Part shown: positions 8,479 to 30,559 of the stretch, in pieces
Layout of the letters: every line of letters starts with the position of its first letter
How positions within the stretch are numbered: the stretch's first letter is position 1
DNA from: a virus
Length of the DNA: 31,694 nt
Reading direction: 5' to 3' (one strand)
Virus record (IMG/VR): IMGVR_UViG_3300023184_000363
Span: 1-31,694 of that record
The notes under the pieces: model-generated
The model's database searches: none
Told to the model about the DNA's origin: nothing
Seen by the model: the letters and a program-made list of their open reading frames with translations, nothing else
Translations under genes and position numbers: made by a program

Positions 8479-8889
8479 ATGCCAATACCTCAAACAATAC
8501 GTGTAAATCCGTTAGATTTACAAAAGAATATTGTAATTGGGGTATCATTACCTTTTAATGCACCTGGTGTATTTAATAAAACATACAGTACTAAAGAGCA
8601 AATTAAATCAAACTTAATTAATCTTTTATTAACTGATAAAGGCGAAAGAATAATGAATCCTGAATTCGGAACGGATTTAAGAAAATCATTATTTGATAAT
8701 ATTACTGATTCTAGTATAGAAATTTTAAAAGCAAAAATAACAGATGCTGTTAATATTTTTATTCCTGAAATATTTTTACAAGATGTAATAATTGAACCGA
8801 ATACTGATTATAATACTTTAAATGTAACTATAAACTATCGTTTAATAATTTCTAACACACCAGACCAAGTAACTGTACAATTTATATAA
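8479..8889 (+). CDS. 25: gp25-like baseplate wedge protein
   Basis: The gene encodes 136 residues, the usual size for the GPW/gp25 family. Key features are the N-terminal NPLDLQKNIVIGVSLPF, the helix QIKSNLINLLLTDKG, and the conserved signature GERIMNPEFGTDLRKSLF (residues 55-72), followed by an amphipathic helix and two C-terminal strands. In T4, gp25 joins the gp6-gp7-gp53 wedge and primes sheath assembly. The gp6-like gene follows after 2 nt, the same order as in other contractile tails. Confidence 0.9.
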   Translation: MPIPQTIRVNPLDLQKNIVIGVSLPFNAPGVFNKTYSTKEQIKSNLINLLLTDKGERIMNPEFGTDLRKSLFDNITDSSIEILKAKITDAVNIFIPEIFLQDVIIEPNTDYNTLNVTINYRLIISNTPDQVTVQFI

Positions 8890-8891
8890 TA

Positions 8892-10739
8892 ATGGCCCAA
8901 GATAATAATATATCATATTTAAATAAAAGTTTTAGTGATTTTAAAGCTAATTTAACTAATTACGCTAAAACCTATTTTCCAACAGCATATAATGACTTTT
9001 CAGATGCTAACCCAGGAGCTATGTTTATTGAAATGGCTTCATATGTTGGTGATGTAATGTCATTTTATCTTGACAATCAAATTCAAGAAAACTTTTTACT
9101 ATACGCTAAGGAAAAAGAAAATTTATATGCTATGTCTTATGCTTTAGGATATCGTCCTAAATCATCATATGCTTCTTCAGCTACAGTTGATGTATATCAA
9201 ATAATGCCTAGTATAATAGCAGGTGGTACAGCAATACCTGATACTAGTTATGGTTTAGTAATTCCTAATAATACAACAATTACTTCAACTTCTGCAGGAA
9301 CTAAATTTTTAACAACTCAACAAGTAGATTTTACTGATACTGGTAGTGCTACTATTACTTTTTATGGTAATCATCCTACAATTGGTAATTCATTTTTAGT
9401 TAAAAAATCTGTACCTGCTATATCCGCTGAAATAAAATCAACTACTTTTACATTTACTACACCTCAGAAATTTTCTACAGCTGTAATTAGTGATACCAAT
9501 ATTATACAAATACTAGATGTAACAGATAATAATGGAAATATTTGGTATGAAGTACCATATTTAGCACAATCCTCAATTTTTGAAAAACAAACTAACTCAA
9601 ACTATAACTCAGATCAAGTACCTTACTTACTACAACTAAGAAGAGTTCCTCGTAGATTTGTTTCAAGACTTTTATCAGATAATACTTTACAATTAGAATT
9701 TGGAGCTGGTGTTTCTAATAAACAAGATGGAAATATAATTCCAACCCCTGATAATATTAAATTAGGTTTAGTACCAGGTATATCAAATCTATTAAATGAT
9801 TATAATCAAGCTTCTATATTTTATACCCAAGAATATGGTTTAGCTCCATCCAATACTACATTAACAGTAAGATATTTAGTAGGTGGTGGTATTACATCAA
9901 ATATTCCTTCTAATGACTTAACAATTATTAATACAGGAAATATTTACTTTAAATCAGGATATTCTACAGTAACATATTCAAATATAGTTAATAGTGTAAT
10001 ATCAACTAATACAGAACCATCATCCGGTGGTAGAAATGGAGATGAAATTGAAGAAATTAGAAATAATGCTTTATATGCTCATTCATCTCAACTGCGTGCT
10101 GTAACTAAAAATGACTATATTGTAAGAGCATTATCATTACCTTCTGATTATGGTAGTATATCTAAAGTATATGTTACCCAAGATCAATTAGAAAACCCTC
10201 AAACTACTACTCAACCACAAATAAGCTCAAATAACCCATTATCTTTAGATTTATATATTTTGGCATACAATTCGAGCAAGCAGTTGTCTTCGGCCTCTAC
10301 TAATTTAAAAAATAATTTAGTTACTTACATTAATGAATATAGAATGGTAACTGATTCTATTAATATTAGAGATGCCTTTTATATTAATATAGGAGTTAAC
10401 TTTGATATTACAATTATAAGTGGATTTAATAACCAAACAGTATTGTCAAATTGTGTAGCAGCTTTAAAGAATTTTTTTAATATAGAAAGTTGGCAAATAA
10501 ACCAACCAATAGTTATATCAGATATAATGGTTCTTCTTTTACAAGTAAAAGGAGTACAATCAGTTACAAAACTAGAAATTGTAAATAAACAAGATACTAC
10601 AGGAATTACTTACTCTCAATATGCTTATGATATTCCCGGAGCAACAAGAAATGGAAATATTTATCCATCAGCAGATCCTTCAATTTTTGAAGTAAGATAT
10701 CCTAATACAGATATTCAAGGTAGAGTTGTTACATACTAA
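8892..10739 (+). CDS. 6: gp6-like baseplate wedge protein (baseplate J family)
   Basis: The gene encodes 615 residues, close to T4 gp6 (660). The N-terminal part has the expected gp6/J signature: FSDFKANLTNYAKTYFPTAYNDFSDANPGAMFIEMASYVGDVMSFYLDNQIQE..LLYAKEKENLYAMSYALGYRPK. The middle carries the J-type segment GGRNGDEIEEIRNNALYAHSSQLRAVTKNDYIVRAL, and the C-terminus is a small alpha/beta domain with VQSVTKLEI. gp6 dimers form the ring that holds the baseplate wedges together. The preceding gp25 gene confirms the module. Confidence 0.9.
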   Translation: MAQDNNISYLNKSFSDFKANLTNYAKTYFPTAYNDFSDANPGAMFIEMASYVGDVMSFYLDNQIQENFLLYAKEKENLYAMSYALGYRPKSSYASSATVDVYQIMPSIIAGGTAIPDTSYGLVIPNNTTITSTSAGTKFLTTQQVDFTDTGSATITFYGNHPTIGNSFLVKKSVPAISAEIKSTTFTFTTPQKFSTAVISDTNIIQILDVTDNNGNIWYEVPYLAQSSIFEKQTNSNYNSDQVPYLLQLRRVPRRFVSRLLSDNTLQLEFGAGVSNKQDGNIIPTPDNIKLGLVPGISNLLNDYNQASIFYTQEYGLAPSNTTLTVRYLVGGGITSNIPSNDLTIINTGNIYFKSGYSTVTYSNIVNSVISTNTEPSSGGRNGDEIEEIRNNALYAHSSQLRAVTKNDYIVRALSLPSDYGSISKVYVTQDQLENPQTTTQPQISSNNPLSLDLYILAYNSSKQLSSASTNLKNNLVTYINEYRMVTDSINIRDAFYINIGVNFDITIISGFNNQTVLSNCVAALKNFFNIESWQINQPIVISDIMVLLLQVKGVQSVTKLEIVNKQDTTGITYSQYAYDIPGATRNGNIYPSADPSIFEVRYPNTDIQGRVVTY

Positions 10740-10750
10740 AAATTAAAATT

Positions 10751-11350
10751 ATGAATTTAGACAAATTAAAAGGACACATTCCGGATGCCGTTATTTCTCA
10801 AATCCCAGGTATTCAAGATAAATTTGAAATTAATACTCCATTACGTTTAGCTCATTTTTTAGCTCAATGTGGTCATGAATCAGGTGGTTTTAGATTAGTT
10901 AAAGAAAATTTAAATTATAGCGCTAAAGGTTTAATGGGTATATTCAAAAAATATTTTCCAACAGAAGCTTTAGCTAAAATATACGAACGCAAACCTGAAA
11001 AAATTGCTAATAAAGTTTATTCATCTAGAATGGGTAACGGCGATGAGGCAAGTGGGGAGGGTGCTAAATTTTGTGGTCGCGGTTATATCCAATTAACTGG
11101 AAAAACTAACTATCAATCATTTTTTAAATCAATTGGTGCCGATATTAATACTGACCCAACATTAGTTGCAACTCAATACCCATTAGCATCAGCAGCATGG
11201 TTTTTTAATAAGAATGGTTTACATAAAATAGCAGATGGCGGTGCAACTGACGCAGTTGTTACATCTATTACTAAACGTGTTAATGGTGGTACAATTGGTT
11301 TACCCGATCGTATTAAACATTTTAAAGAATACCACGCACTACTTGCATAA
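10751..11350 (+). CDS. GH19 (chitinase-like) lysozyme/endolysin
   Basis: The gene encodes 199 residues. The GH19 fold is clear: HFLAQCGHESGGF (catalytic Glu43), a second acidic residue at Glu52 in VKENLNYSA, and the signature GRGYIQLTGKTNY (109-121), then ASAAWFFNKNGLHKIAD and VTKRVNGGTIGLPDR. GH19 phage enzymes cut the glycan backbone of peptidoglycan. There is no signal peptide or anchor. The gene lies 11 nt after gp6, inside the baseplate cluster, so the enzyme may be virion-associated, replacing the lysozyme domain absent from the spike, rather than or as well as a lysis endolysin. Confidence 0.85.
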   Translation: MNLDKLKGHIPDAVISQIPGIQDKFEINTPLRLAHFLAQCGHESGGFRLVKENLNYSAKGLMGIFKKYFPTEALAKIYERKPEKIANKVYSSRMGNGDEASGEGAKFCGRGYIQLTGKTNYQSFFKSIGADINTDPTLVATQYPLASAAWFFNKNGLHKIADGGATDAVVTSITKRVNGGTIGLPDRIKHFKEYHALLA

Positions 11351-18992: not shown

Positions 18993-21017
18993 ATGTCATC
19001 ATTCAAAAAACTAAGCAAATCAGACGTTACGCATGTACCATATGCTGCCAATAAGCAGTGGAACTTAACTTACTCTTCGGGGTATCCAAAGAATGATGGT
19101 TACGTAACAATATATAAAGGTACTAATTTAACTAGTAGCTTCGATTCTATTATGGATCCTGTAACTGAGGGTCAATATGAAGGTTTAGTTTATGATTCAA
19201 TAAATCATTTATTTTATCAAGAATTTAGTGGTTCTCTTTTAAATACTTCTTCTTTAGCAAATTCAATATTTTACGAATCTGCTTCTCAACAACGTCCTAC
19301 TTCATCATATTTTATTTATGATGAAAACCCTAAATTTAAAAATTATTTTCCTACAGGCTCTAATGAAGGTATTCGTGTATTAGGATTTAATCAAGAAATT
19401 TTTGGTAATAAATTATTACCTTATAACTTTATTTTATCATCATCTGCATATTATATAACAGATGATGGTAATGGCAATATATTAGATAATAATATTACTT
19501 ATGTAGGTAATATATTTTATCCTCAAGGTTTAGTTGTTATTACAAACCAAGACTATCAAGATATGTTCCCTCTACCTCCACTTGCGGTAGCGGATATTAT
19601 TAATGTTTTAGCAAGTGATTATGATAAAACGGGAAGTATATTAGATAATGATTTAGCTAGATTTGGATCTTTAGTTACAAGCTCTATTACATTATCAGGT
19701 AGTGCATTTCAAAAATCTACTATTAAACTTACAGGTAGTTATAATAGTGATGTTAGTATGGTTTCTAGTTCTAGCCCATATCCCTATTTCCAACAAGGGG
19801 TATATGATATCTACTATACAGTTAATTCTACTGGTAGCTTTGGATCTCTTACAAGCAATAAAGCATTAATCAGATTTAATGTTGGGGCTCCTGATTGTGA
19901 TTTTGAACCTGTATTAACTTTAATACCACCATCCCCAACGCCTACACCATCATTAACACCTAGTGTTACTAGAACTCCAAGTATAACACCTACTCCATCA
20001 TTAACACCTACTCCATCAATAACAGCAACACCATCATTAACTCCAACTCCTTCATTAACTGCAACACCATCATTAACTCCTAGTATTACTGCTACTCCAA
20101 GTATAACACCTACTCCATCATTAACACCTACTCCATCAATAACAGCAACTCCATCATTAACAGCTACTCCATCGTTAACACCTAGTGTTACTAGAACACC
20201 TAGTATTACTGCTACTCCATCGTTAACTCCTAGTATAACCCCAACTCTACCACCTTCCCCTACTCCATCATTAACACCAACCCCATCATTAACACCAACA
20301 CCATCAATTACCAGAACGCCTAGTATTACTGCTACACCATCATTAACACCAACACCATCAATAACTGCTACCCCATCATTAACAGCTACTCCATCATTAA
20401 CACCTAGTATTACTGCAACTCCAAGTATTACTGCAACTCCAAGTATTACTGCAACTCCAAGTATTACTGCTACTCCATCGTTAACACCAACACCAAGTAT
20501 TACTAGAACACCTGATCCAACTAGTACACCAAGTTTAACACCAACACCATCAATTACCAGAACGCCTAGCATTACTGCTACTCCAAGTATTACTAGAACA
20601 CCTAGTATAACTCCTACTCCATCATTAACACCTTCCGAATCTCCAATACCTCCAACATATACAGTTAATGTGTTTGCTAAATCAAGTGGACTTCTATCCC
20701 CTCAAGAATTTATTTGGTGGAGTGATGATGCTTGGGCTACACAAAATAAACTATCTACTGCAGTTACTACTTCAGGAGTTAATGCCGGTAATATACCTAA
20801 CGTAACTAGTGGAACAACAATACAATTTGCATGTTCTAATGGAACTGGTCCTATAACATCTGGAGCAGGTACAGCAATTAGTATAGCTGTGGGTAGTGGT
20901 TACCCAACAGGTCCTTCTAGTTGTGGCGCTTTACCTTATGGAGGTCAAGCTTATCAAGTATTCTCTAATGTTACCTTGTACTTTACAGCCAATTCTGGAT
21001 TCCAAGGATCTTGTTAA
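18993..21017 (+). CDS. Mucin-like Ser/Thr/Pro-repeat virion protein (putative adhesin)
   Basis: The gene encodes 674 residues in three parts. Residues 1 to ~312 are a beta-rich head with Ser/Tyr/Gly turns, similar in style to the preceding structural proteins, so it is probably the virion attachment part. Residues ~313-547 are about 39 hexapeptides of the form PS(I/L)T(A/P)T, sometimes with Arg (VTRTPS): an extended, rigid, mucin-like stalk in which about every second residue is Ser or Thr. Residues ~550-674 are a C-terminal globular domain ([12 protein letters not shown] ... [14 protein letters not shown] ... [12 protein letters not shown]) with three Cys. There is no signal peptide. The glycosyltransferase operon starts 43 nt downstream, so the stalk is the obvious candidate acceptor. 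A long antisense frame here is a by-product of the repeat. Confidence 0.75.
19931..20632 (+). repeat. About 700 bp of degenerate 18-bp coding repeats
   Basis: The period is 18 bp (six codons). Most units differ at synonymous third positions, but some are exact. AGTATTACTGCAACTCCA occurs three times in perfect tandem at 20406-20459. Bases 19974-20029 are repeated identically at 20094-20149, exactly 120 bp (40 codons) apart. The mix of old, diverged units and fresh copies points to continuing slippage or unequal recombination that keeps the frame. Confidence 0.85.
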
Positions 21018-21024
21018 TAAAATG

Positions 21025-21056
21025 TTTGGATATTAAATAAAAATTAGTTATATTTA
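21025..21056 (+). promoter_or_regulatory. Host-type promoter of the glycosylation operon
   Basis: TTTG (21025-21028), a 20-nt spacer, then TATATTTA (21049-21056), one base from the Bacteroidota consensus TAnnTTTG. The ATG at 21061 is only 4 nt further, so the mRNA would be leaderless or nearly so. The operon would be transcribed separately from the late structural genes. Confidence 0.5.
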
Positions 21057-21060
21057 AGTT

Positions 21061-22320
21061 ATGTCAAAAATCTTTGTTTCGATAGCATCCTATAGGGATC
21101 CTGAACTGCTACCAACATTACACGACTTAATAAGTAATGCTGCTAATCCTGATGATTTAGTGATATGCATTGCCTGGCAACATTCTAAAAAAGATAAATG
21201 GGATACTTTAAAAAAATATAAAAACGATACACGTTTTAGAATTATTGATATCCCATATGAAGAATCTAAAGGCGTATGTTGGGCTAGAGCTAAAATACAA
21301 GAACAATACCAAGGTGAAGATTATTATTTTCAATTAGATTCACATCACCGATTTATTAAAAATTGGGATAGAGAATTAATTGATATGTTACATTATTTAC
21401 AATGTAAAAGCTACCCTAAACCATTAATATCAGCATATATACCATCATATTTCCCAAATAAAGAACCAGATGGTAGAATTAATGAGGTATGGATGTTAAA
21501 TATTCAAAGATTTTTACCTGAAGGTGCTGTATTTTTAAACCCACAAGGATTAGATAACTGGAAAACCTTTAAAGAACCTGTACCTACCCGTTTTATATCA
21601 GCCCATTTTATTTTTACATTAGGTAAATTTGTTGAAGAAGTTCCATATGATCCTAATTTTTATTTTCATGGTGAAGAAACATCATTAGCTGCTCGTGCTT
21701 ACACTTGGGGTTATGATTTATTTAGTCCTCATAAAATATATGCTTGGCATGAATATTTTAGAGATGGTAAAACAAAACAATGGGATGATGATCCAATATA
21801 TGTAGAACGAGATAAAAGTTCATACGCTAGATTTAGAGCATTATTTGGAATGAATGAAGGTGATTGTGAAGGTTGTTCTCAAAAAGAATTTGGAAAATAT
21901 TGGTTTGGTAATAAAAGAATGTTACGAGATTATGAACGTTATGCTGGTTTAAAGTTTAGAACTAGACAAATACATAAGTATACTTTAACAAATAATCCCC
22001 CACCAACTAAAGGAGATTATGAATCGGGTTTACTTAGTAAAGTAAAGGTTTGTATAGATGTTTACAAAGGTTCTTTACCTGAACCGGATTATGATTTGTT
22101 TGTAATAGCATTATTAGATAAAAATGGTAAAGATATTTTTAGAAAAGATGCTGATGCTAATGAAATAAAATTCTTATTAAATGAACTTCCAAACGATCAA
22201 TTTGTACACATATGGAGAGAATTTGAAAGCGACATTCAACCCCATAAATGGAGAGTTTGGCCACATAGTGTATCTAAAGATTGGATGGACCCAATAGAAC
22301 AAGAAATAAAATATGAATAA
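21061..22320 (+). CDS. GT60/PF11397-like polypeptide GlcNAc-transferase homologue, copy 1
   Basis: The gene encodes 419 residues. The N-terminus IFVSIASYRDPELLPTLHDLISNAANPDDL and the block CWARAKIQEQYQGEDYYFQLDSHHRF (DSHHRF at 93-98, the metal/nucleotide-sugar site in place of DxD) are characteristic of PF11397. HGEE at 203-206, RAYTWGYDLFSP (212-223) and His230 follow in the expected order. Known members (Dictyostelium Gnt1, trypanosome mucin GlcNAc-transferase) add GlcNAc directly to hydroxyproline or Ser/Thr of proteins. The C-terminal ~100 residues form an extra domain shared with the next gene. It is first in the operon, next to the mucin-like gene. Family call is strong; donor and acceptor are inferred. 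Confidence 0.8.
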   Translation: MSKIFVSIASYRDPELLPTLHDLISNAANPDDLVICIAWQHSKKDKWDTLKKYKNDTRFRIIDIPYEESKGVCWARAKIQEQYQGEDYYFQLDSHHRFIKNWDRELIDMLHYLQCKSYPKPLISAYIPSYFPNKEPDGRINEVWMLNIQRFLPEGAVFLNPQGLDNWKTFKEPVPTRFISAHFIFTLGKFVEEVPYDPNFYFHGEETSLAARAYTWGYDLFSPHKIYAWHEYFRDGKTKQWDDDPIYVERDKSSYARFRALFGMNEGDCEGCSQKEFGKYWFGNKRMLRDYERYAGLKFRTRQIHKYTLTNNPPPTKGDYESGLLSKVKVCIDVYKGSLPEPDYDLFVIALLDKNGKDIFRKDADANEIKFLLNELPNDQFVHIWREFESDIQPHKWRVWPHSVSKDWMDPIEQEIKYE

Positions 22321-23581
22321 AAAAGAAACTATATTACTACATCTCCCAGCATATAGAGATCCGGAATTGATTCCCTCTATTAAAGATGCTTTAGCAAAAG
22401 CAAAATATCCAAAACGTATTCATTTTGGTATTTGTAGACAATATCATCCTGATGATACGTTTGATAATCTAGATGAATTTAGAAAGGATAAACGCTTTCA
22501 TATAATGGATGTGTTATATACTGAGGCACAAGGATTACCTTGGGCCCGCGCCCAAATTAATGAAAAATTATTAACTAATCAAGATTATATATTACAATTA
22601 GACTCACATCATCGATTTGCACAAGATTGGGATGTTACTTTAATTGATATGCATAATAAATTAGAGGAAAAAGGACATAAACCTATATTGGCCGCTTATC
22701 TGCCATTATACACCCCATTAAATGATCCTGAAGGACGTTCAATGGAACCTTGGCAACAACAGTTTGCTTGTTTTTATCCGCATGGTACGATTTTTATACG
22801 CCCGGGTTTATTACAAGGTCATCAATTTATGACAGAACCACCAATGTCACGTTTTTTATCGGGACATTTTTGCTTTGCTCGCTCTGAATGGGCTCGTGAA
22901 ATAAGACATGATACTGATATTTATTTTAGTGGTGAAGAATTAAATTTAACTGTTCGTTCATATACTCATGGTTATGATTTCTTCCACCCCCATAAATTAG
23001 TTATTTGGCATTCAACAATGAGAGAAGAAAGATCAGGTATACTTAAATGGGATGATGATGCTAAAGCTGGAAATGATTGGTGGAAAAAACAAGATTATGC
23101 TCGTAAAAAAATAAGAGTTTTATTACGTACTGAAGAAGACCCAAATATTGATTTAACAGGTTATGATTTAGGTACTGTAAGAACGTTACGTGATTTTGAA
23201 AAGTATGCTGGTTTTAACTTTAAGAAAAAAGCAGTACAAAAATATACTTTAGATAATTTTTACCCACCAAATCCATTAATTAAAGATGATGAATTGTGGG
23301 AACAATCATTTATGGAATCATTTTATTATTTAATAACAGTTGACAAAAATTTCTTCCCTGATGATAATTATAAATTTGTATTAATAGCGTTTGATGATGA
23401 AAATGGTAAAGCAATTAATACCAAATATGTAGATGGAGATGACTTAATACAATTTAACAAAGGACAAAATATTCATTATGAAGAATTCTTTTTAATTGAG
23501 AAAAAACCTGTTAGAGTTGTATATTGGGCTTATAGTGAGGCTAAAGGATGGTGTGAACGTTTAGAATACAAAATAGATTAA
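22313..23581 (+). CDS. GT60/PF11397-like polypeptide GlcNAc-transferase homologue, copy 2
   Basis: The gene encodes 422 residues and overlaps copy 1 by 8 nt. It has the same plan: LLHLPAYRDPELIPSIKDAL, PWARAQINEKLLTNQDYILQLDSHHRF (DSHHRF at 97-102), SGEE (206-209) in place of HGEE, RSYTHGYDFFHP (215-226) and His233. It is clearly a paralogue of copy 1 but well diverged, so the two probably differ in acceptor site or sugar. The C-terminal domain (FKFVLIAFDDENGKAIN) matches that of copy 1. All key residues look intact. Confidence 0.8.
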   Translation: MNKKETILLHLPAYRDPELIPSIKDALAKAKYPKRIHFGICRQYHPDDTFDNLDEFRKDKRFHIMDVLYTEAQGLPWARAQINEKLLTNQDYILQLDSHHRFAQDWDVTLIDMHNKLEEKGHKPILAAYLPLYTPLNDPEGRSMEPWQQQFACFYPHGTIFIRPGLLQGHQFMTEPPMSRFLSGHFCFARSEWAREIRHDTDIYFSGEELNLTVRSYTHGYDFFHPHKLVIWHSTMREERSGILKWDDDAKAGNDWWKKQDYARKKIRVLLRTEEDPNIDLTGYDLGTVRTLRDFEKYAGFNFKKKAVQKYTLDNFYPPNPLIKDDELWEQSFMESFYYLITVDKNFFPDDNYKFVLIAFDDENGKAINTKYVDGDDLIQFNKGQNIHYEEFFLIEKKPVRVVYWAYSEAKGWCERLEYKID

Positions 23582-24535
23582 ATGAACAAAATATTAATAG
23601 TACAAATGGCTCTAGGCCCAACCTACAAAGCCAGATTACTACATAATCTTCAAACATATCCAGCATACGATAAGTTTGATGTCTTTATTATGACTGATGA
23701 AGTTGAATACTTTAATCAAGTATCTCATAAATCTAATTTATATATTAATAATATAGATGAAATAAGAAAAGATTATCCTTGGTCTATTGAATTAGAAAAG
23801 GTACCACCTTTAATAAAGGATGAAGCTGAATTTGCTAAATATTGCTTAGAAAATAATGTAAAAATTCCTACGTTACTTCAAAGATTTTCTTTAAATTGGG
23901 AAAAATCATCTGATTATGATGGATTTATTTGGATGGATTGTGATGTTCTTCCTTTAGTAGATTCTGAAACTTATAATAAATTAGAAAATTATTTTACTAC
24001 TAAAGAAGATAAAGTAGTAATATTGCCTGTTGGTGGTACATATAATATGGATAATAATTCTTATATAAAAGACTTTGCATTATATATTAATGACAAATAT
24101 AAAATTACTAATAAAGAAGTAGTTGATAATAACTTTTTAACTACAGATGGTAATTTTAGAACTTTAAAATTTCCAAACAAAGAATATACTAAATATTTTT
24201 TTGAATTATTAAATAATGTAGCACATGACGTGCTAACAGATGATAAATATTTTTTAATAGGAGTGCACACTATGTGGAATCTCCATTCAGAATATATACT
24301 AGCTATACTTTTTAATTTATTAGAAGCTAAAGGATATCCATGGTCTGAAGATAAAGGAATAGACAGAAATAATAATAATTCTTTTAAATTATGTGGTTTC
24401 CCTGAAGATAGATTTTGGAGTTGGGCATTAGGTACAGTTATTCCATCACTCATTGGTAAACAAGATTTTATTGATAAAAATTATGATGGTTTAAAACAAT
24501 ACTATATAGATCATTTTCAAGAATTTCCTTATTAA
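23582..24535 (+). CDS. Putative glycosyltransferase, GT-A-like
   Basis: The gene encodes 317 residues and starts right after the copy 2 stop. The N-terminus (KILIVQMALGPTYKARLLHNLQTY) is a Rossmann-like strand-helix, and DGFIWMDCDVLPLV (Asp119 and Asp121) is the kind of DxD motif used by GT-A enzymes to hold a metal-bound nucleotide sugar. Later, PVGGTYNMDNNS and GVHTMWNLHSEYILAILFNLLEAKGYPWSEDKG could form the acceptor side. I cannot name a CAZy family. Its place inside the operon supports a sugar-transfer role. Confidence 0.6.
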   Translation: MNKILIVQMALGPTYKARLLHNLQTYPAYDKFDVFIMTDEVEYFNQVSHKSNLYINNIDEIRKDYPWSIELEKVPPLIKDEAEFAKYCLENNVKIPTLLQRFSLNWEKSSDYDGFIWMDCDVLPLVDSETYNKLENYFTTKEDKVVILPVGGTYNMDNNSYIKDFALYINDKYKITNKEVVDNNFLTTDGNFRTLKFPNKEYTKYFFELLNNVAHDVLTDDKYFLIGVHTMWNLHSEYILAILFNLLEAKGYPWSEDKGIDRNNNNSFKLCGFPEDRFWSWALGTVIPSLIGKQDFIDKNYDGLKQYYIDHFQEFPY

Positions 24536-24546
24536 AAAATAAAAAC

Positions 24547-25416
24547 ATGTTAAAATATTTTAAACCTTACAAAATTGATTCTCCTAAAGTTCGTTTAGGT
24601 AATAAAAGCGACGGTGGTTATGTTGTATCTGAAATAGTACTTAATAAATGTACTACCTTATTTACTTATGGTTATGGTGGTGATAAAAGTTATGAAGATG
24701 ACTTTATCGCTAAGTACGACAAACCAAACTACATATTTGATCATACTGGGCATCAAGAAAAATGGAGCCAAGGTGAGCAATACTTTTTCCCTGAAGGGTT
24801 AGGATCAAGTTTATCTAATAAAGATAAAGAAGTAAGTTTATTTAATGAATTGTATATAAGAAAAGATCTTTTAGACAAAGCATTTGATGACTTAAGTGAA
24901 GACCAAAGTGTAACTAAAGTAAAAAAGTATAAAAAATCATTAGATGTACTTTATGAATCAGTTAAAAATTTATCTGATCTTTTAAGTGTTAAAGATGTTA
25001 GGGAACATTATGATAGCTTAGGTATTCAAGGAGACATATTTTTAAAAATTGATACTGAAGGTGCTGAGTTTGATTATTTTTTAAATGCTGATATTGATGA
25101 TTTATCAACGTTTGTTTGTGGTATTGTAGTTGAAGTACATTGGTTAGAACAATTACAAAACCAAACTAAATTTATTGATATGATGGAAAAAATTAATAAG
25201 CATTTTATATTAACACACGTTCATGGTAATAATTGGGGTGGGGAATTTGAATATGAAGGTCATACAATACCTAGAGTACCAGAATTTTCATTTGTAAATA
25301 GAAAATATGTTACTGATTCAATATCTGATACTCAAGACTATCCAATCGTTGATTTAGATTATCCTAATAATACTAACATTGCCGATTGCAATCTAGACTT
25401 TTTAAAAACACTATAA
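24547..25416 (+). CDS. FkbM-like SAM-dependent methyltransferase
   Basis: The gene encodes 289 residues. VRLGNKSDGGYVVSE (15-29) is the N-terminal signature of FkbM/Methyltransf_21-type proteins. TLFTYGYGGDKSYEDDF (38-54) fits SAM-binding motif I, and FLKIDTEGAEFDYF (165-178) is the conserved FkbM motif. Such enzymes O-methylate sugars or polyketides. Here the likely target is a sugar placed by the neighbouring transferases; terminal methylation often caps a glycan. A ~70-residue helical insertion (about 95-165) separates the motifs, which is longer than usual. Confidence 0.7.
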   Translation: MLKYFKPYKIDSPKVRLGNKSDGGYVVSEIVLNKCTTLFTYGYGGDKSYEDDFIAKYDKPNYIFDHTGHQEKWSQGEQYFFPEGLGSSLSNKDKEVSLFNELYIRKDLLDKAFDDLSEDQSVTKVKKYKKSLDVLYESVKNLSDLLSVKDVREHYDSLGIQGDIFLKIDTEGAEFDYFLNADIDDLSTFVCGIVVEVHWLEQLQNQTKFIDMMEKINKHFILTHVHGNNWGGEFEYEGHTIPRVPEFSFVNRKYVTDSISDTQDYPIVDLDYPNNTNIADCNLDFLKTL

Positions 25417-25417
25417 T

Positions 25418-26263
25418 ATGATTTATATATCACTAACTACAGTTCCAGTACGAATGAGTTTTTGGAACGAATTTAAACAAAATCTTGATTCATTGTTAAA
25501 TCAAGATACTACAGCTGATTATAAAGTAGTATTAAATGTTCCATATCGTTATAAAAATAATAATGATGAAGAATATGTTATATCTGAAGATTTATTAAAA
25601 TATGTTGAGGAAAATCCTAAATTAATTATTAATAGAGTAGAAGATGATTTTGGTCCTGTGGTTAAGTTAACAGGTATGCTATTATATTCTAATAATCCTG
25701 ACGATATTTTAATTGTATGTGATGACGATCACGTCTATCACAAAGATATGTTAGAATATCATTTAAAAAAACGCAATGAATACCCAAATGATGCTATTTG
25801 CTTTAGAGGTGATACACCAGTACAGAAAAGAGGATGGGTGGAAGACGGAGTAAAAAAATATACATTACCAAATACTCATACTTTTTTCCCAGCTAAATTT
25901 GATATTCAGTTAAATGTACCAGGGCATTGGCACTCAGTTGGTTATAAAAGAGAATTTTTTAATGATGATTTTTTAGATAAAGATTTTTTAACAGCTTGTG
26001 ATAATGATGATGTTCTTGTAGGATATTATTTTAGAAAATATCAAAGACTTATTACATGCGTTGCCTGGGATAAAGAAACGGACTTTAGAGCAGTAAATGA
26101 TCTTGGTCGTGGTGCTCATCATTTCCCAATAATTAATCCATTACCTTTCCCAAGTTCTGGATTTAACGAATTTAGAGCTAAAAGTGGAGACCATATGGGT
26201 CGTTCACAGGATTTTATTTGGGAATTATTAAATAATCATAACACAATATATACAGAAAAATAA
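25418..26263 (+). CDS. GT-A glycosyltransferase, paralogue A
   Basis: The gene encodes 281 residues. It begins with a GT-A strand (YISLTTVPVRMSFW ... NLDSLLNQ), then YKVVLNVPYRYK, FGPVVKLTGML and ILIVCDDDHVYH (CDDD at 101-104), the metal-binding DxD. A His-rich segment near the C-terminus (GRGAHHFP) may contribute to catalysis or metal binding. The next gene is a clear paralogue. There is no membrane segment, so it should act in the cytoplasm. Donor sugar unknown. Confidence 0.7.
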   Translation: MIYISLTTVPVRMSFWNEFKQNLDSLLNQDTTADYKVVLNVPYRYKNNNDEEYVISEDLLKYVEENPKLIINRVEDDFGPVVKLTGMLLYSNNPDDILIVCDDDHVYHKDMLEYHLKKRNEYPNDAICFRGDTPVQKRGWVEDGVKKYTLPNTHTFFPAKFDIQLNVPGHWHSVGYKREFFNDDFLDKDFLTACDNDDVLVGYYFRKYQRLITCVAWDKETDFRAVNDLGRGAHHFPIINPLPFPSSGFNEFRAKSGDHMGRSQDFIWELLNNHNTIYTEK

Positions 26264-26268
26264 ACAAA

Positions 26269-27072
26269 ATGAACAAAGTAATTGTAACACTAACAACATT
26301 ACCAACTAGAATAACTCAAGATTATGATGCTGGTATTAAAAGCAATATTGACTCTTTAATCAACCAAGATTATGAGGGGGAGTATGAAATTCACTTTAAT
26401 GTACCTACAGTATTAAAATATACAGGTGAGGAGTATATTATTCCTGAATGGATGAAAGAATTATCAACAACAAATCCTAAATTCAAAATATTTGATAACT
26501 TGGAGGATTTAGGACCTGTTACTAAATTGTATCATACTTTACAACGTATAGATGATCCTGAAGCAATTATTATTGTTTGTGATGATGATTTAGTTTACCA
26601 CCCAGGAATGGTTGCTGAACAAGTTAGAAATCAAAATAGATTTGTTAATACTGCTGTTGGGTATGATGGAACTAGAGCTGAAAATATAGAATTTGATGAT
26701 GTTAGACAACATTATGTAGTATCTGTTCCTAGAGATGTTGAAGTAAATCGTTTACAACATTACAAGACAGTATCTTATAGACGCAAATGGTTTGAAAATG
26801 ATTTTTTTACTGATTTTGTAGGCAAATCATGGAATGATGATATATTAGTAAGTGCTTATATGGGTAAGCAAGGAATTAGAAGATTAGTTGCTACCTATGA
26901 ACATGAAGAACAATTAATTACTATTGAACAATGGCAAGAAAAAGGTGGAGTAACAACTTTCCCTGTATTACGCCATACTTCTCATGAAGGTCAAGAAGGT
27001 TGTAATTTATATAGACAAGCTCAATTAGATGAGAATTTTATGGATTTTGTAAATTTAGGATACTTAAAATAA
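26269..27072 (+). CDS. GT-A glycosyltransferase, paralogue B
   Basis: The gene encodes 267 residues with the same order of motifs as its neighbour: VIVTLTTLPTRIT, SLINQDYEGEYEIHFNVP, LGPVTKLYHTL and IIIVCDDDLVYH (CDDD at 104-107). The C-terminal halves differ, and the His-rich segment of paralogue A is replaced here by LRHTSHEGQEG. Together with the PF11397 pair this makes two duplicated enzyme pairs in one operon, as expected for stepwise chain extension. Confidence 0.7.
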   Translation: MNKVIVTLTTLPTRITQDYDAGIKSNIDSLINQDYEGEYEIHFNVPTVLKYTGEEYIIPEWMKELSTTNPKFKIFDNLEDLGPVTKLYHTLQRIDDPEAIIIVCDDDLVYHPGMVAEQVRNQNRFVNTAVGYDGTRAENIEFDDVRQHYVVSVPRDVEVNRLQHYKTVSYRRKWFENDFFTDFVGKSWNDDILVSAYMGKQGIRRLVATYEHEEQLITIEQWQEKGGVTTFPVLRHTSHEGQEGCNLYRQAQLDENFMDFVNLGYLK

Positions 27073-27073
27073 T

Positions 27074-28768
27074 ATGAATAAAGACTTAACCATAGTAACA
27101 GGTTTGTGGAATATTAGTAGACCAGGACGTTCTTTTGATCACTATATTCAACATTTTAACCATTTTTTAGACATAGATGCTAATTTATTTATTTATATTC
27201 CTCAAGAATATGAACATTTAGTTTGGGCTAAAAGATCAAAAGAAAATACTTTTGTTAAGGTTTATGAATTAGATGATGTAAAAAAATTATATTCTCCATT
27301 TTGGGATAAAACTCAACAAATAAGAACAAATCCTGAATGGTTAAATTTAACAGGCCCTGGTGGTTGGTTACCTGGTAGTCCTCAAGCAGCTAATGAATGG
27401 TATAATCCAATTGTAATGTCTAAAATGTTTATGTTACATGATGCTACTCTTTGGAATCCATTTGATACAGAATATTTTATTTGGTTAGATGCTGGTATTA
27501 CAAATACTGTTTATGAAAAATTCTTTACTGAACAAAAAGTTTTAGATAAAATAACAAATCATTTAAATCCATTTTTATTCTTATCTTATCCATATGCTGC
27601 TACAGATGAAATACATGGTTTTAAATTTAAAGAAATAAATGAATATTGTGATACTACTGCTGAATGGGTTTGTAGAGGTGGGTTGTTTGGTGGTACTAAA
27701 AAAGCAATTCATGAAGCAAATGGATTATATTATTCTTTAGTAGATAAATCCTTAGCTCAAGGCTTAATGGGTACTGAAGAAAGCATATTTTTAATAATGT
27801 CTTATTTAGAACCAGAAAAATATAGGCGTTATGCTTTAGATTCAAATGGCTTGATTATTAAATTTATTCAAGCATTAGATGAAAATAAAGTTGAACTAGA
27901 ACCCATACCAGAAACACGTACACAATTTATTGAAAAATCATTATCATTGGATGATATAAAAACATCATTATATGTTTTAACATTCAATTTTCCTCAACAA
28001 TTACAAACATTGTTAGATAGTTACGAAAAACATCCTGAATGGTTAAAACGTACTCGTAAAATATTAATTGATAATTCTACAGATGCTATTGCTAAAATTA
28101 ATAATAAAGAAATAGCAGATAAATATGGGTTTGAACATATTATAACTGGTAAAAATGGTGGTATATGTGGTGGTAGACAAATTGTAGCAGAACACTTCCA
28201 TGAATCCGATAGTGATTATTATATATTTTTAGAAGATGATATGTGTATACATGAACCATCTATGGAAGGTAAATTTTGTAGAAATGGATTTAGGCAGTAT
28301 ATTCCTAACTTATATGATAAAATTCATAAAATTATGATTAAGGAAAAATTTGATTTCCTTAAATTATCATATACAGAAGTATACATGGATAATAATATTC
28401 AAGTATCTTGGTATAATGTTCCTCAAAGCGTTAGAACAGAAATGTGGCCTGAATATGATAAATTACCTACAACTGGTTTAGATCCTAATACACCTCGTGC
28501 TAATTTTAAAAATATTAATGTTTTAGACGAATTAAGCTACATTTCAGGTGAAATTTATTATGCTAATTGGCCTATGATTGTTAGTAAAGAGGGTAATAAA
28601 AAAATGTTTATTGATACTAAATGGGCACACCCATACGAACAAACATGGATGAGCCAAATGTTCCAAGATACTCGCAGCAATAAACTAAAACCAGCAGTGT
28701 TATTAGCATCCCCGGTTAACCATAATAGAATAATATGGTATAAGCCTGAAGAAAGACGTGAAAATTAA
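27074..28768 (+). CDS. Two-domain glycosyltransferase (HtrL/YibB-like plus GT2-like)
   Basis: The gene encodes 564 residues. Residues 1 to ~285 resemble the HtrL/YibB family: LTIVTGLWNISRPGRS, FNHFLDIDANLFIYIP, FIWLDAGITNTVY (135-147), WVCRGGLFGGTKKAI and GTEESIFLIM. Residues ~295-564 look like a second GT-A domain: SLYVLTFNFPQQLQTLLDSY, RKILIDNSTD, and YYIFLEDDMCIHEPS with the EDDM acidic motif at 387-390. A fusion like this would let one protein add two successive sugars. It is the last gene of the operon. Confidence 0.7.
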   Translation: MNKDLTIVTGLWNISRPGRSFDHYIQHFNHFLDIDANLFIYIPQEYEHLVWAKRSKENTFVKVYELDDVKKLYSPFWDKTQQIRTNPEWLNLTGPGGWLPGSPQAANEWYNPIVMSKMFMLHDATLWNPFDTEYFIWLDAGITNTVYEKFFTEQKVLDKITNHLNPFLFLSYPYAATDEIHGFKFKEINEYCDTTAEWVCRGGLFGGTKKAIHEANGLYYSLVDKSLAQGLMGTEESIFLIMSYLEPEKYRRYALDSNGLIIKFIQALDENKVELEPIPETRTQFIEKSLSLDDIKTSLYVLTFNFPQQLQTLLDSYEKHPEWLKRTRKILIDNSTDAIAKINNKEIADKYGFEHIITGKNGGICGGRQIVAEHFHESDSDYYIFLEDDMCIHEPSMEGKFCRNGFRQYIPNLYDKIHKIMIKEKFDFLKLSYTEVYMDNNIQVSWYNVPQSVRTEMWPEYDKLPTTGLDPNTPRANFKNINVLDELSYISGEIYYANWPMIVSKEGNKKMFIDTKWAHPYEQTWMSQMFQDTRSNKLKPAVLLASPVNHNRIIWYKPEERREN

Positions 28769-29547: not shown

Positions 29548-29940
29548 ATGGCATTTAGCGGTTTATTTAGTGGTTCATTTCAACTTTTATTTAAAAACGA
29601 ACATTTCGTTTATGAAAATGAAGTGCGCTGTGTTATTAAGGAAAGTGAATTTAATTTGTCTTATAATCCTACATTACTTGTTTCAGGAAGTCAATATATC
29701 ACTGCTATATCATCTAGTGCATCAGGAAGTACATATACTTTAACAGGTTCTTTAAATAGTACTTTAAAGTTTTTTGCTACTGGTTCAACTTTACCTTCAG
29801 GATCTTATTTTACACCTTATGTTACAACAATAGGTTTATATAATGATAATAATGAATTACTAGCAGTAGCTAAATTTGGTAAACCAATATTAATGTCACC
29901 TTATACAGATATGACATTTATAGTTAGATATGATACATAA
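29548..29940 (+). CDS. Short paralogue of the 18026 C-terminal module
   Basis: The gene encodes 130 residues. It consists almost only of the module that ends the 18026 protein: ENEVRCVIKESEFNLSYNPTLLVSG corresponds to [23 protein letters not shown], and [25 protein letters not shown] to [25 protein letters not shown]. The near-identical DNA at the core shows a recent duplication or gene conversion. It could compete for, or share, the docking site of the larger protein. Its last 11 nt overlap the next gene. Confidence 0.7.
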   Translation: MAFSGLFSGSFQLLFKNEHFVYENEVRCVIKESEFNLSYNPTLLVSGSQYITAISSSASGSTYTLTGSLNSTLKFFATGSTLPSGSYFTPYVTTIGLYNDNNELLAVAKFGKPILMSPYTDMTFIVRYDT

Positions 29941-30559
29941 GAAAAAATATAATAAAATTTATTGTATTGGAGACTCCCATGCTAATACTTTACATGAATC
30001 TCCCAACATTACATCTATCGCTTTTGGACCTAATACTATGCACCATATTGGAAAACATGGTATAGAAGATATGTTAAATTATCTCTATGATACTAAAGAA
30101 GTTATAAAAGAAGAATTATTTTCTGAAGAGGGGTTATTAATATTAGCTTATGGTGAAATTGATGTTAGATGCCACATCAATAAACAGATAATAGAAAAAC
30201 AAAGAGAAGAAGACGAAGTAATAAAAACCTTAATTGATAATTATATAAATCAATTAAAATTAATTTCTACTAATGTTGGAGTATTAAGTATTGTTCCTCC
30301 AATAAGATTTTATTCTGAAATATATTTTAATGAAAATTTTCCTTTTGTAGGTTCTGATTCAGATAGAAATAGATATACTCAAAAATTAAATGAATATTTA
30401 TATCAAAGATGTATTGAAGAAAATATAGTATATGTTGATATATACAATCCATATAAAGATGAAGAGGGATTTTTAATAAAAGAATTATCTGATGGTAATG
30501 TACATATTCAAAATAAAAATAAAGTAAAAGATATATTAATTAATATTGGTTTAATATAA
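29930..30559 (+). CDS. SGNH/GDSL-like hydrolase
   Basis: The gene encodes 209 residues. Block I is IYCIGDSHANTL with the nucleophile Ser16 in GDSH. Block III may be AYGEIDVRCHI (Gly75, Asp78), and block V SDGNVHIQ supplies Asp188 and His192 in the usual DxxxH spacing. SGNH enzymes remove or transfer acyl groups, often O-acetyl on sugars. Beside a glycosylation island it may edit the virion glycan or deacetylate host surface polysaccharide. There is no signal peptide. The start overlaps the 29548 gene by 11 nt, so translation is coupled to a structural gene. Confidence 0.7.
   Translation: MIHKKKYNKIYCIGDSHANTLHESPNITSIAFGPNTMHHIGKHGIEDMLNYLYDTKEVIKEELFSEEGLLILAYGEIDVRCHINKQIIEKQREEDEVIKTLIDNYINQLKLISTNVGVLSIVPPIRFYSEIYFNENFPFVGSDSDRNRYTQKLNEYLYQRCIEENIVYVDIYNPYKDEEGFLIKELSDGNVHIQNKNKVKDILINIGLI

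Follow-up and report, generated by a model that had tools for sequence, protein, structure and literature searches.

Gtr-type seroconversion of lipopolysaccharide (LPS) employs a flippase and a bactoprenol transferase beside the specific glycosyltransferase (GT), and hydroxyproline glycosylation of the Skp1 type has a prolyl hydroxylase as partner. A survey of GT-A enzymes gives DxH as the motif of the families GT27 and GT60, assigns to both the mode of polypeptide Ser/Thr O-glycosylation and places GT60 in prokaryotes and protists only (PMC7185993). The GT60 enzyme TcOGNT1 of T. cruzi is described in two papers as forming N-acetylglucosamine (GlcNAc)-alpha-Thr in mucin-like proteins (PMC9472816; PMC3769586). 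Virion glycosylation is described for mycobacteriophages, in which the capsid and tail-tube subunits carry the glycans at their C-terminal ends (Freeman 2023, as cited in another paper). The present report concerns the 31.7 kb virus record IMGVR_UViG_3300023184_000363, which was analysed over its full length of 31,694 nucleotides and is called the window below. It carries a cassette of seven genes enclosed by the genes of two Ser/Thr/Pro-rich (STP) proteins, STP1 and STP2, and with this cassette the phage probably encodes a system for mucin-type O-glycosylation of proteins. In keeping with such a system, a dense Thr/Ser/Pro tract, the predicted acceptor, is encoded together with the putative initiating enzyme. 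The computed basis is the enzyme family, the catalytic motif, the fold, the bracketing by two STP proteins and the recurrence of GT60 with STP repeats.

A T4-like tail module lies upstream and is followed on the same strand by STP1, the seven genes (21061-28768) and STP2 (Table 1). The gap between STP1 and the first enzyme gene is 43 bp. An earlier sequence-only reading had placed seven sugar genes behind a repeat protein; seven open reading frames (ORFs) are indeed present on that strand, and six match a glycosyltransferase or methyltransferase family at some level (Pfam), while 23582-24535 is without a family. STP2, absent from that reading, closes the cassette, so that the seven genes are bracketed by two STP proteins. 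The approximately 39 repeat units read in the tail-region protein were counted as exactly 39 TPS triplets, and STP1 holds 54 [ST]P[ST] triplets. Windows dense in repeats take up 272 of its residues, starting at aa 313, and Tandem Repeats Finder placed the arrays at about 19937-20621. Thr, Pro and Ser each use several codons (ACA 29, ACT 38, ACC 5, ACG 3; CCA 40, CCT 20; Ser also mixed), which speaks against a simple DNA microsatellite. The mixed codons, together with reversed-pattern controls near zero, also ruled out that the repeats stem from chance or low-complexity DNA. Twenty loci have the N-terminal domain of STP1 in conserved form behind their tail genes; its model, built from 20 sequences, was poor (predicted local distance difference test, pLDDT, 55.6) and too weak for a fold search. 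The position of STP1 and STP2 in the tail module, after the baseplate genes, suggests that both are located in the virion.

The first two enzyme genes, GT60a and GT60b, overlap by 8 bp. Their assignment to PF11397/GT60 was confirmed by profile search, in which both far exceeded the gathering cut-off of 21 bits (E = 1e-68 and 2e-48), and both match phrog_24687, annotated as glycosyltransferase. An alignment of 58 phage and bacterial homologues shows D93, H95, E206 and H230 unchanged in all 58, and D93-S94-H95 provides DxH in place of DxD. The AlphaFold model of GT60a is of high quality (pLDDT 94.5, predicted template modelling score 0.89). Foldseek listed polypeptide N-acetylgalactosaminyltransferases (ppGalNAc-Ts) first, and in VIA-align against the PDB these enzymes filled all of rows 1-29 (Z 19.7-23.2), followed by the next enzyme at 17.2. 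Identity to the ppGalNAc-Ts is 12-17%, and the matched part is mainly residues 1 to ~330. By sequence no PDB chain was matched for GT60 or the HtrL_YibB enzyme, and NCBIfam profiles gave sub-cut-off matches only. On the grounds of family, motif, fold and association, GT60a and GT60b are proposed to be polypeptide transferases that start the chain, a role already suggested for them and one with which the modelled fold agrees. Hydroxyproline, also considered as an acceptor, found no support: no prolyl hydroxylase is present in the cassette (Pfam) or in the 25 families listed, of 37 found, for 78 GT60 neighbours.

The association of GT60 with STP repeats was surveyed across viral records with repeat criteria that differed by analysis, namely composition, at least 7 motifs in 60 residues, or at least 6. 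As controls for the locus count, 80 loci were fetched with a baseplate (core) gene. An STP-repeat ORF was found in 50 of 87 viral GT60 loci versus 3 of 80 baseplate-gene loci (at least 7 motifs in 60 residues), a gap that is in part one of length, the control loci being shorter on average (10.2 vs 17.4 kb). After dereplication, in which GT60s at least 80% alike were removed, STP remained in 31 of 55 loci. The two genes were adjacent in 18 of the 55 (shuffle mean 9.6, standard deviation 2.4, maximum 18 in 3000), and the STP gene ended less than 150 bp upstream of GT60 in 16. Dereplication at 65% left 9 of 20 loci adjacent (shuffle 4.0, standard deviation 1.5).

Sampling was also reversed, using a DNA pattern for STP repeats chosen without regard to GT60. 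PF11397 occurred in 18 of 50 STP-selected records versus 0 of 40 random records, among the matches listed; both samples were picked by length from lists of 80 records each, and L306, just above the length line, was dropped to keep the first sample at 50. Nine of 120 STP-selected stretches (at least 6 motifs) hold a GT60, which is the next gene in seven of the nine. The pattern is carried by 16/16 GT60 records of at least 87 kb and by only 3/9 mid-size GT60-positive fragments; 4/4 GT60-negative relatives of at least 110 kb are also without it. It matched 42 times in XacN1, 33 times in RAS14 and not at all in seven GT60-negative named records. Among large records it was present in 18/18 GT60-positive ones versus 0/11 negatives, the latter picked as relatives or well-known phages; large STP-positive, GT60-negative records exist and the records are interrelated, so that Fisher values are indicative only. 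When the tract is set aside, up to 24 groups without mutual relationship remain among the 57 STP proteins near a GT60, an upper bound as some members are contig-edge fragments. A tie of GT60 to one tail gene was thereby ruled out, and the shared feature is therefore the tract. The co-occurrence of PF11397 with the repeats, anticipated from the single locus, is thus significant across phages. Fifty neighbours of STP genes in GT60-negative records include virion families, e.g. sheath and portal, and no glycosyltransferase in the 25 families listed. The viral contigs L024 and L034 display an interleaved order STP-GT60-STP-GT60, as if there were one acceptor per enzyme.

The remaining enzymes of the cassette had been read as an FkbM methyltransferase, a GT-A pair and a two-domain enzyme. 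The first was borne out, with PF05050 above its cut-off. In the pair the gene at 25418 passes PF00535 and that at 26269 falls just below the cut-off, and in the two-domain enzyme the HtrL_YibB domain was matched and the GT2 match stayed below the cut-off. A homologue of this HtrL_YibB/GT2 enzyme is present in 77/87 viral and 16/80 bacterial GT60 loci, 0/80 baseplate-gene loci and 0/120 random stretches. The most constant partner of GT60 is thus this fusion of a GT2-like domain with HtrL_YibB, a family whose function is unknown. Variable partners are FkbM and TylF methyltransferases, carbamoyltransferase, GDP-mannose dehydratase, epimerases, GT10 and GT34. Constancy of the one and variation of the others suggest that initiation and extension form a conserved core, to which the decoration is added in variable form.

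Related gene sets occur in isolates. The XacN1 genome encodes a GT60 homologue, ORF334 (40% identity), with a carbamoyltransferase and a GT9 nearby, and STP tracts in ORF325, located behind genes of the baseplate wedge, as well as in three ORFs close to the gene for the tail sheath (ORF369, ORF370 and ORF372). At least two glycoproteins are reported for this Xanthomonas phage in the XacN1 paper. In bacteria, GT60 adjoins STP proteins in Jiulongibacter sediminis, where two GT60s surround one STP gene, in Saprospiraceae and in others (neighbour pairs at L176 5948-9233 and L174 6504-9248 for the two named groups). Several of these bacterial STP proteins have what we take to be a twin-arginine-like N-terminus; some bacterial matches, those in GC-rich genomes, may be spurious ORFs.

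According to the proposed mechanism, STP1 and STP2 would be made together with the enzymes, and GT60a and GT60b would start the glycan on Thr or Ser residues of the two tracts, the initial sugar being probably an N-acetylhexosamine. The chain would be lengthened by the two-domain HtrL_YibB/GT2 enzyme and the other transferases and modified by the FkbM enzyme. The glycosylated tract may form a stiff, hydrated spacer that holds the C-terminal domain away from the tail, the dense glycans keeping the tract extended and protected. Lectin binding, stiffening and masking, the roles put forward in the sequence-only reading, are possibilities only. For this scheme we infer the virion location, the sugar, the linkage, the order of the enzymes and the function, as well as all steps after initiation. 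A broader proposal is put forward only tentatively: a mobile module of GT60, HtrL_YibB/GT2 and an STP acceptor may be a widespread prokaryotic counterpart of mucin-type O-glycosylation, with which phages of several hosts would build mucin-like virion stalks and bacteria (Jiulongibacter, Saprospiraceae, others) would act on exported proteins, HtrL_YibB being the extender of the O-glycan.

A number of observations weigh against a glycosylation system acting on the tracts. The 20 loci with the STP1 N-terminal domain share the gene order tail genes, STP1, g29548, g30575, primase, where the contig is long enough. A GT60-containing cassette is present at the STP1 locus in L252, L254, L255, L256 and L054; in L265 nothing lies between STP1 and g29548, and STP1 has no tract there. 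The cassette looks like an insertable unit. STP repeats without it are found at the same locus in L257, L258, L260-L262, L264, L267 and L269; the repeats therefore do not need a neighbouring GT60, and the link at the STP1 locus itself is not clear-cut. By the composition-based criterion 36 of 87 GT60 loci have no STP ORF. Among STP-selected records of at least 28 kb (L281-L360), 32 of the 50 tested, including seven of at least 100 kb, carry Ser/Thr/Pro repeat proteins and no PF11397 among the matches listed, and the amino acid composition of STP is alike in GT60-positive and GT60-negative records. The association is weaker in bacteria than in phages (12/80 bacterial loci hold both; 7 adjacent vs 3.1 expected), and the text of the XacN1 paper, as far as accessible, does not tie the glycoproteins to STP proteins.

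HtrL_YibB proteins are, moreover, associated with lipooligosaccharide loci. This favors an alternative in which the infecting phage uses the cassette to alter LPS or capsule on the surface of its host, e.g. to exclude other phages, the STP proteins being ordinary spacers that share the tail locus by chance. Sugar-nucleotide enzymes (GDP-mannose dehydratase, epimerases) among the GT60 neighbours and the frequency of STP proteins without GT60 point the same way. We nevertheless consider it unlikely, as both fold and motif point to polypeptide transferases, the link to STP holds over up to 24 unrelated carriers, the seven genes include no flippase and no polyprenol- or bactoprenol-type transferase (Pfam), and the setting is a tail module.

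That the target of GT60 is instead a different protein of the virion, such as capsid, tube or fibre, after the manner of the mycobacteriophages, with STP nearby only as part of a shared late structural module, appears distinctly improbable. GT60 can lie more than 10 kb (the fetched flank) from any STP ORF in an STP-bearing genome, e.g. L065, and the accessible text on XacN1 leaves its glycoproteins unnamed; set against this are the loci in which GT60 directly follows the STP gene and the large GT60-less relatives that also lack the STP pattern. Modification of phage DNA, as by the T4 glucosyltransferases, can hardly be the role: the phage is T4-like by its baseplate genes and phages are well known to employ glycosyltransferases on DNA, but the seven genes of the window include no DNA-modification GT family, and the cassette lies between STP genes in a tail module whose locus is kept by relatives without it.

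If O-glycosylation of the STP tracts is correct, many environmental phages encode mucin-like O-glycosylation with enzyme and acceptor side by side, and a class of phage proteins with Ser/Thr/Pro repeats would be accounted for. A function would be suggested for the uncharacterised HtrL_YibB family, and the finding would be relevant to the question of an ancient origin of mucin-type initiation as opposed to its transfer between prokaryotes, phages and protists. The proposal is testable in the isolated phages RAS14, CM1 and XacN1 and in the cultured bacterium Jiulongibacter.

The features of the window are listed in Table 1. Judged by the wedge protein at 8892, Flavobacterium phage immuto (47%) is the nearest isolate, followed by Microcystis phage Mel-JY01 (42%). 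At 10751-11350 a gene that looks by eye like a chitinase or lysozyme lies between the baseplate wedge and fibre-region genes. The segment 2001-3000 has a GC content of 0.42 versus ~0.30 elsewhere, covers an ORF at 2372-2995 that is GIY-YIG-type by eye, and is possibly a recent insertion. Just past the cassette, 29930-30559 is weakly similar to GDSL esterases, with scores (20.8 and 22.4 bits) that stay under the cut-offs; it is a possible glycan O-acyl modifier, with a homologue in 1/87 viral GT60 loci only.

Table 1. Positions and assignments of the features in the window.
Feature	Position	Strand	Evidence or remarks
Baseplate wedge proteins	at 8479 and 8892		tail PHROG matches
STP1, probable tail/virion protein, 674 aa	18993..21017	+	N-terminal domain aa 1-306, Ser/Thr/Pro tract, C-terminal domain (phrog_15511)
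STP1 Ser/Thr/Pro tract, proposed O-glycan acceptor	19929..20640, end approximate	+	39 TPS units
GT60a, PF11397, proposed initiating polypeptide HexNAc-transferase	21061..22320	+	232.8 bits; phrog_24687; DxH; fold
GT60b, second PF11397 enzyme	22313..23581	+	166.3 bits; 36% identical to GT60a; catalytic D and H kept
Cassette gene	23582..24535	+	no Pfam or PHROG match
FkbM-type methyltransferase	24547..25416	+	PF05050, 27.8 bits vs cut-off 22.7, 3.3e-6
GT2-like glycosyltransferase	25418..26263	+	PF00535, 24.5 bits vs cut-off 23.3
GT2-like glycosyltransferase	26269..27072	+	21.4 bits, just under cut-off 23.3
Two-domain enzyme, HtrL_YibB + GT2-like	27074..28768	+	PF09612, 1.7e-11; GT2 match sub-cut-off
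STP2, Ser/Thr/Pro-rich, 247 aa	28793..29536	+	closes cassette
Conserved gene past cassette	29548..29940	+	right border in loci with and without cassette

The statement of the sequence-only reading that no phage system of this design had been described must be narrowed, since glycosylation of phage virions is in itself already known (mycobacteriophages; proposed for XacN1). GT60 with STP proteins as proposed acceptors appears to be new in phages; a literature search, with most subscription papers outside its reach, found no report of it. The absence, by Pfam, of flippase and bactoprenol transferase families from the seven genes sets the locus apart from Gtr-type LPS seroconversion. It resembles XacN1 in the GT60 homologue, the many STP proteins and the reported glycoproteins; XacN1, in contrast, is a jumbo phage of another lineage, whose authors name neither the GT60 family nor an STP acceptor in the text accessible. 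With the mycobacteriophages it shares the decoration of virion proteins by phage glycosyltransferases, and it differs in its long Ser/Thr/Pro tract and proposed mucin-type initiator. The GT27 ppGalNAc-transferases of animals and Toxoplasma have the closest solved folds and likewise DxH, but differ in their low identity and in matching mainly the N-terminal part of the phage enzyme. The protist GT60 alpha-GlcNAc-transferases, represented by TcOGNT1 of T. cruzi, belong to the same Pfam family and share the DxH motif, whereas the phage enzymes, whose activity is predicted, would be cytoplasmic (no Golgi) and are encoded as a tandem pair in a tail operon.

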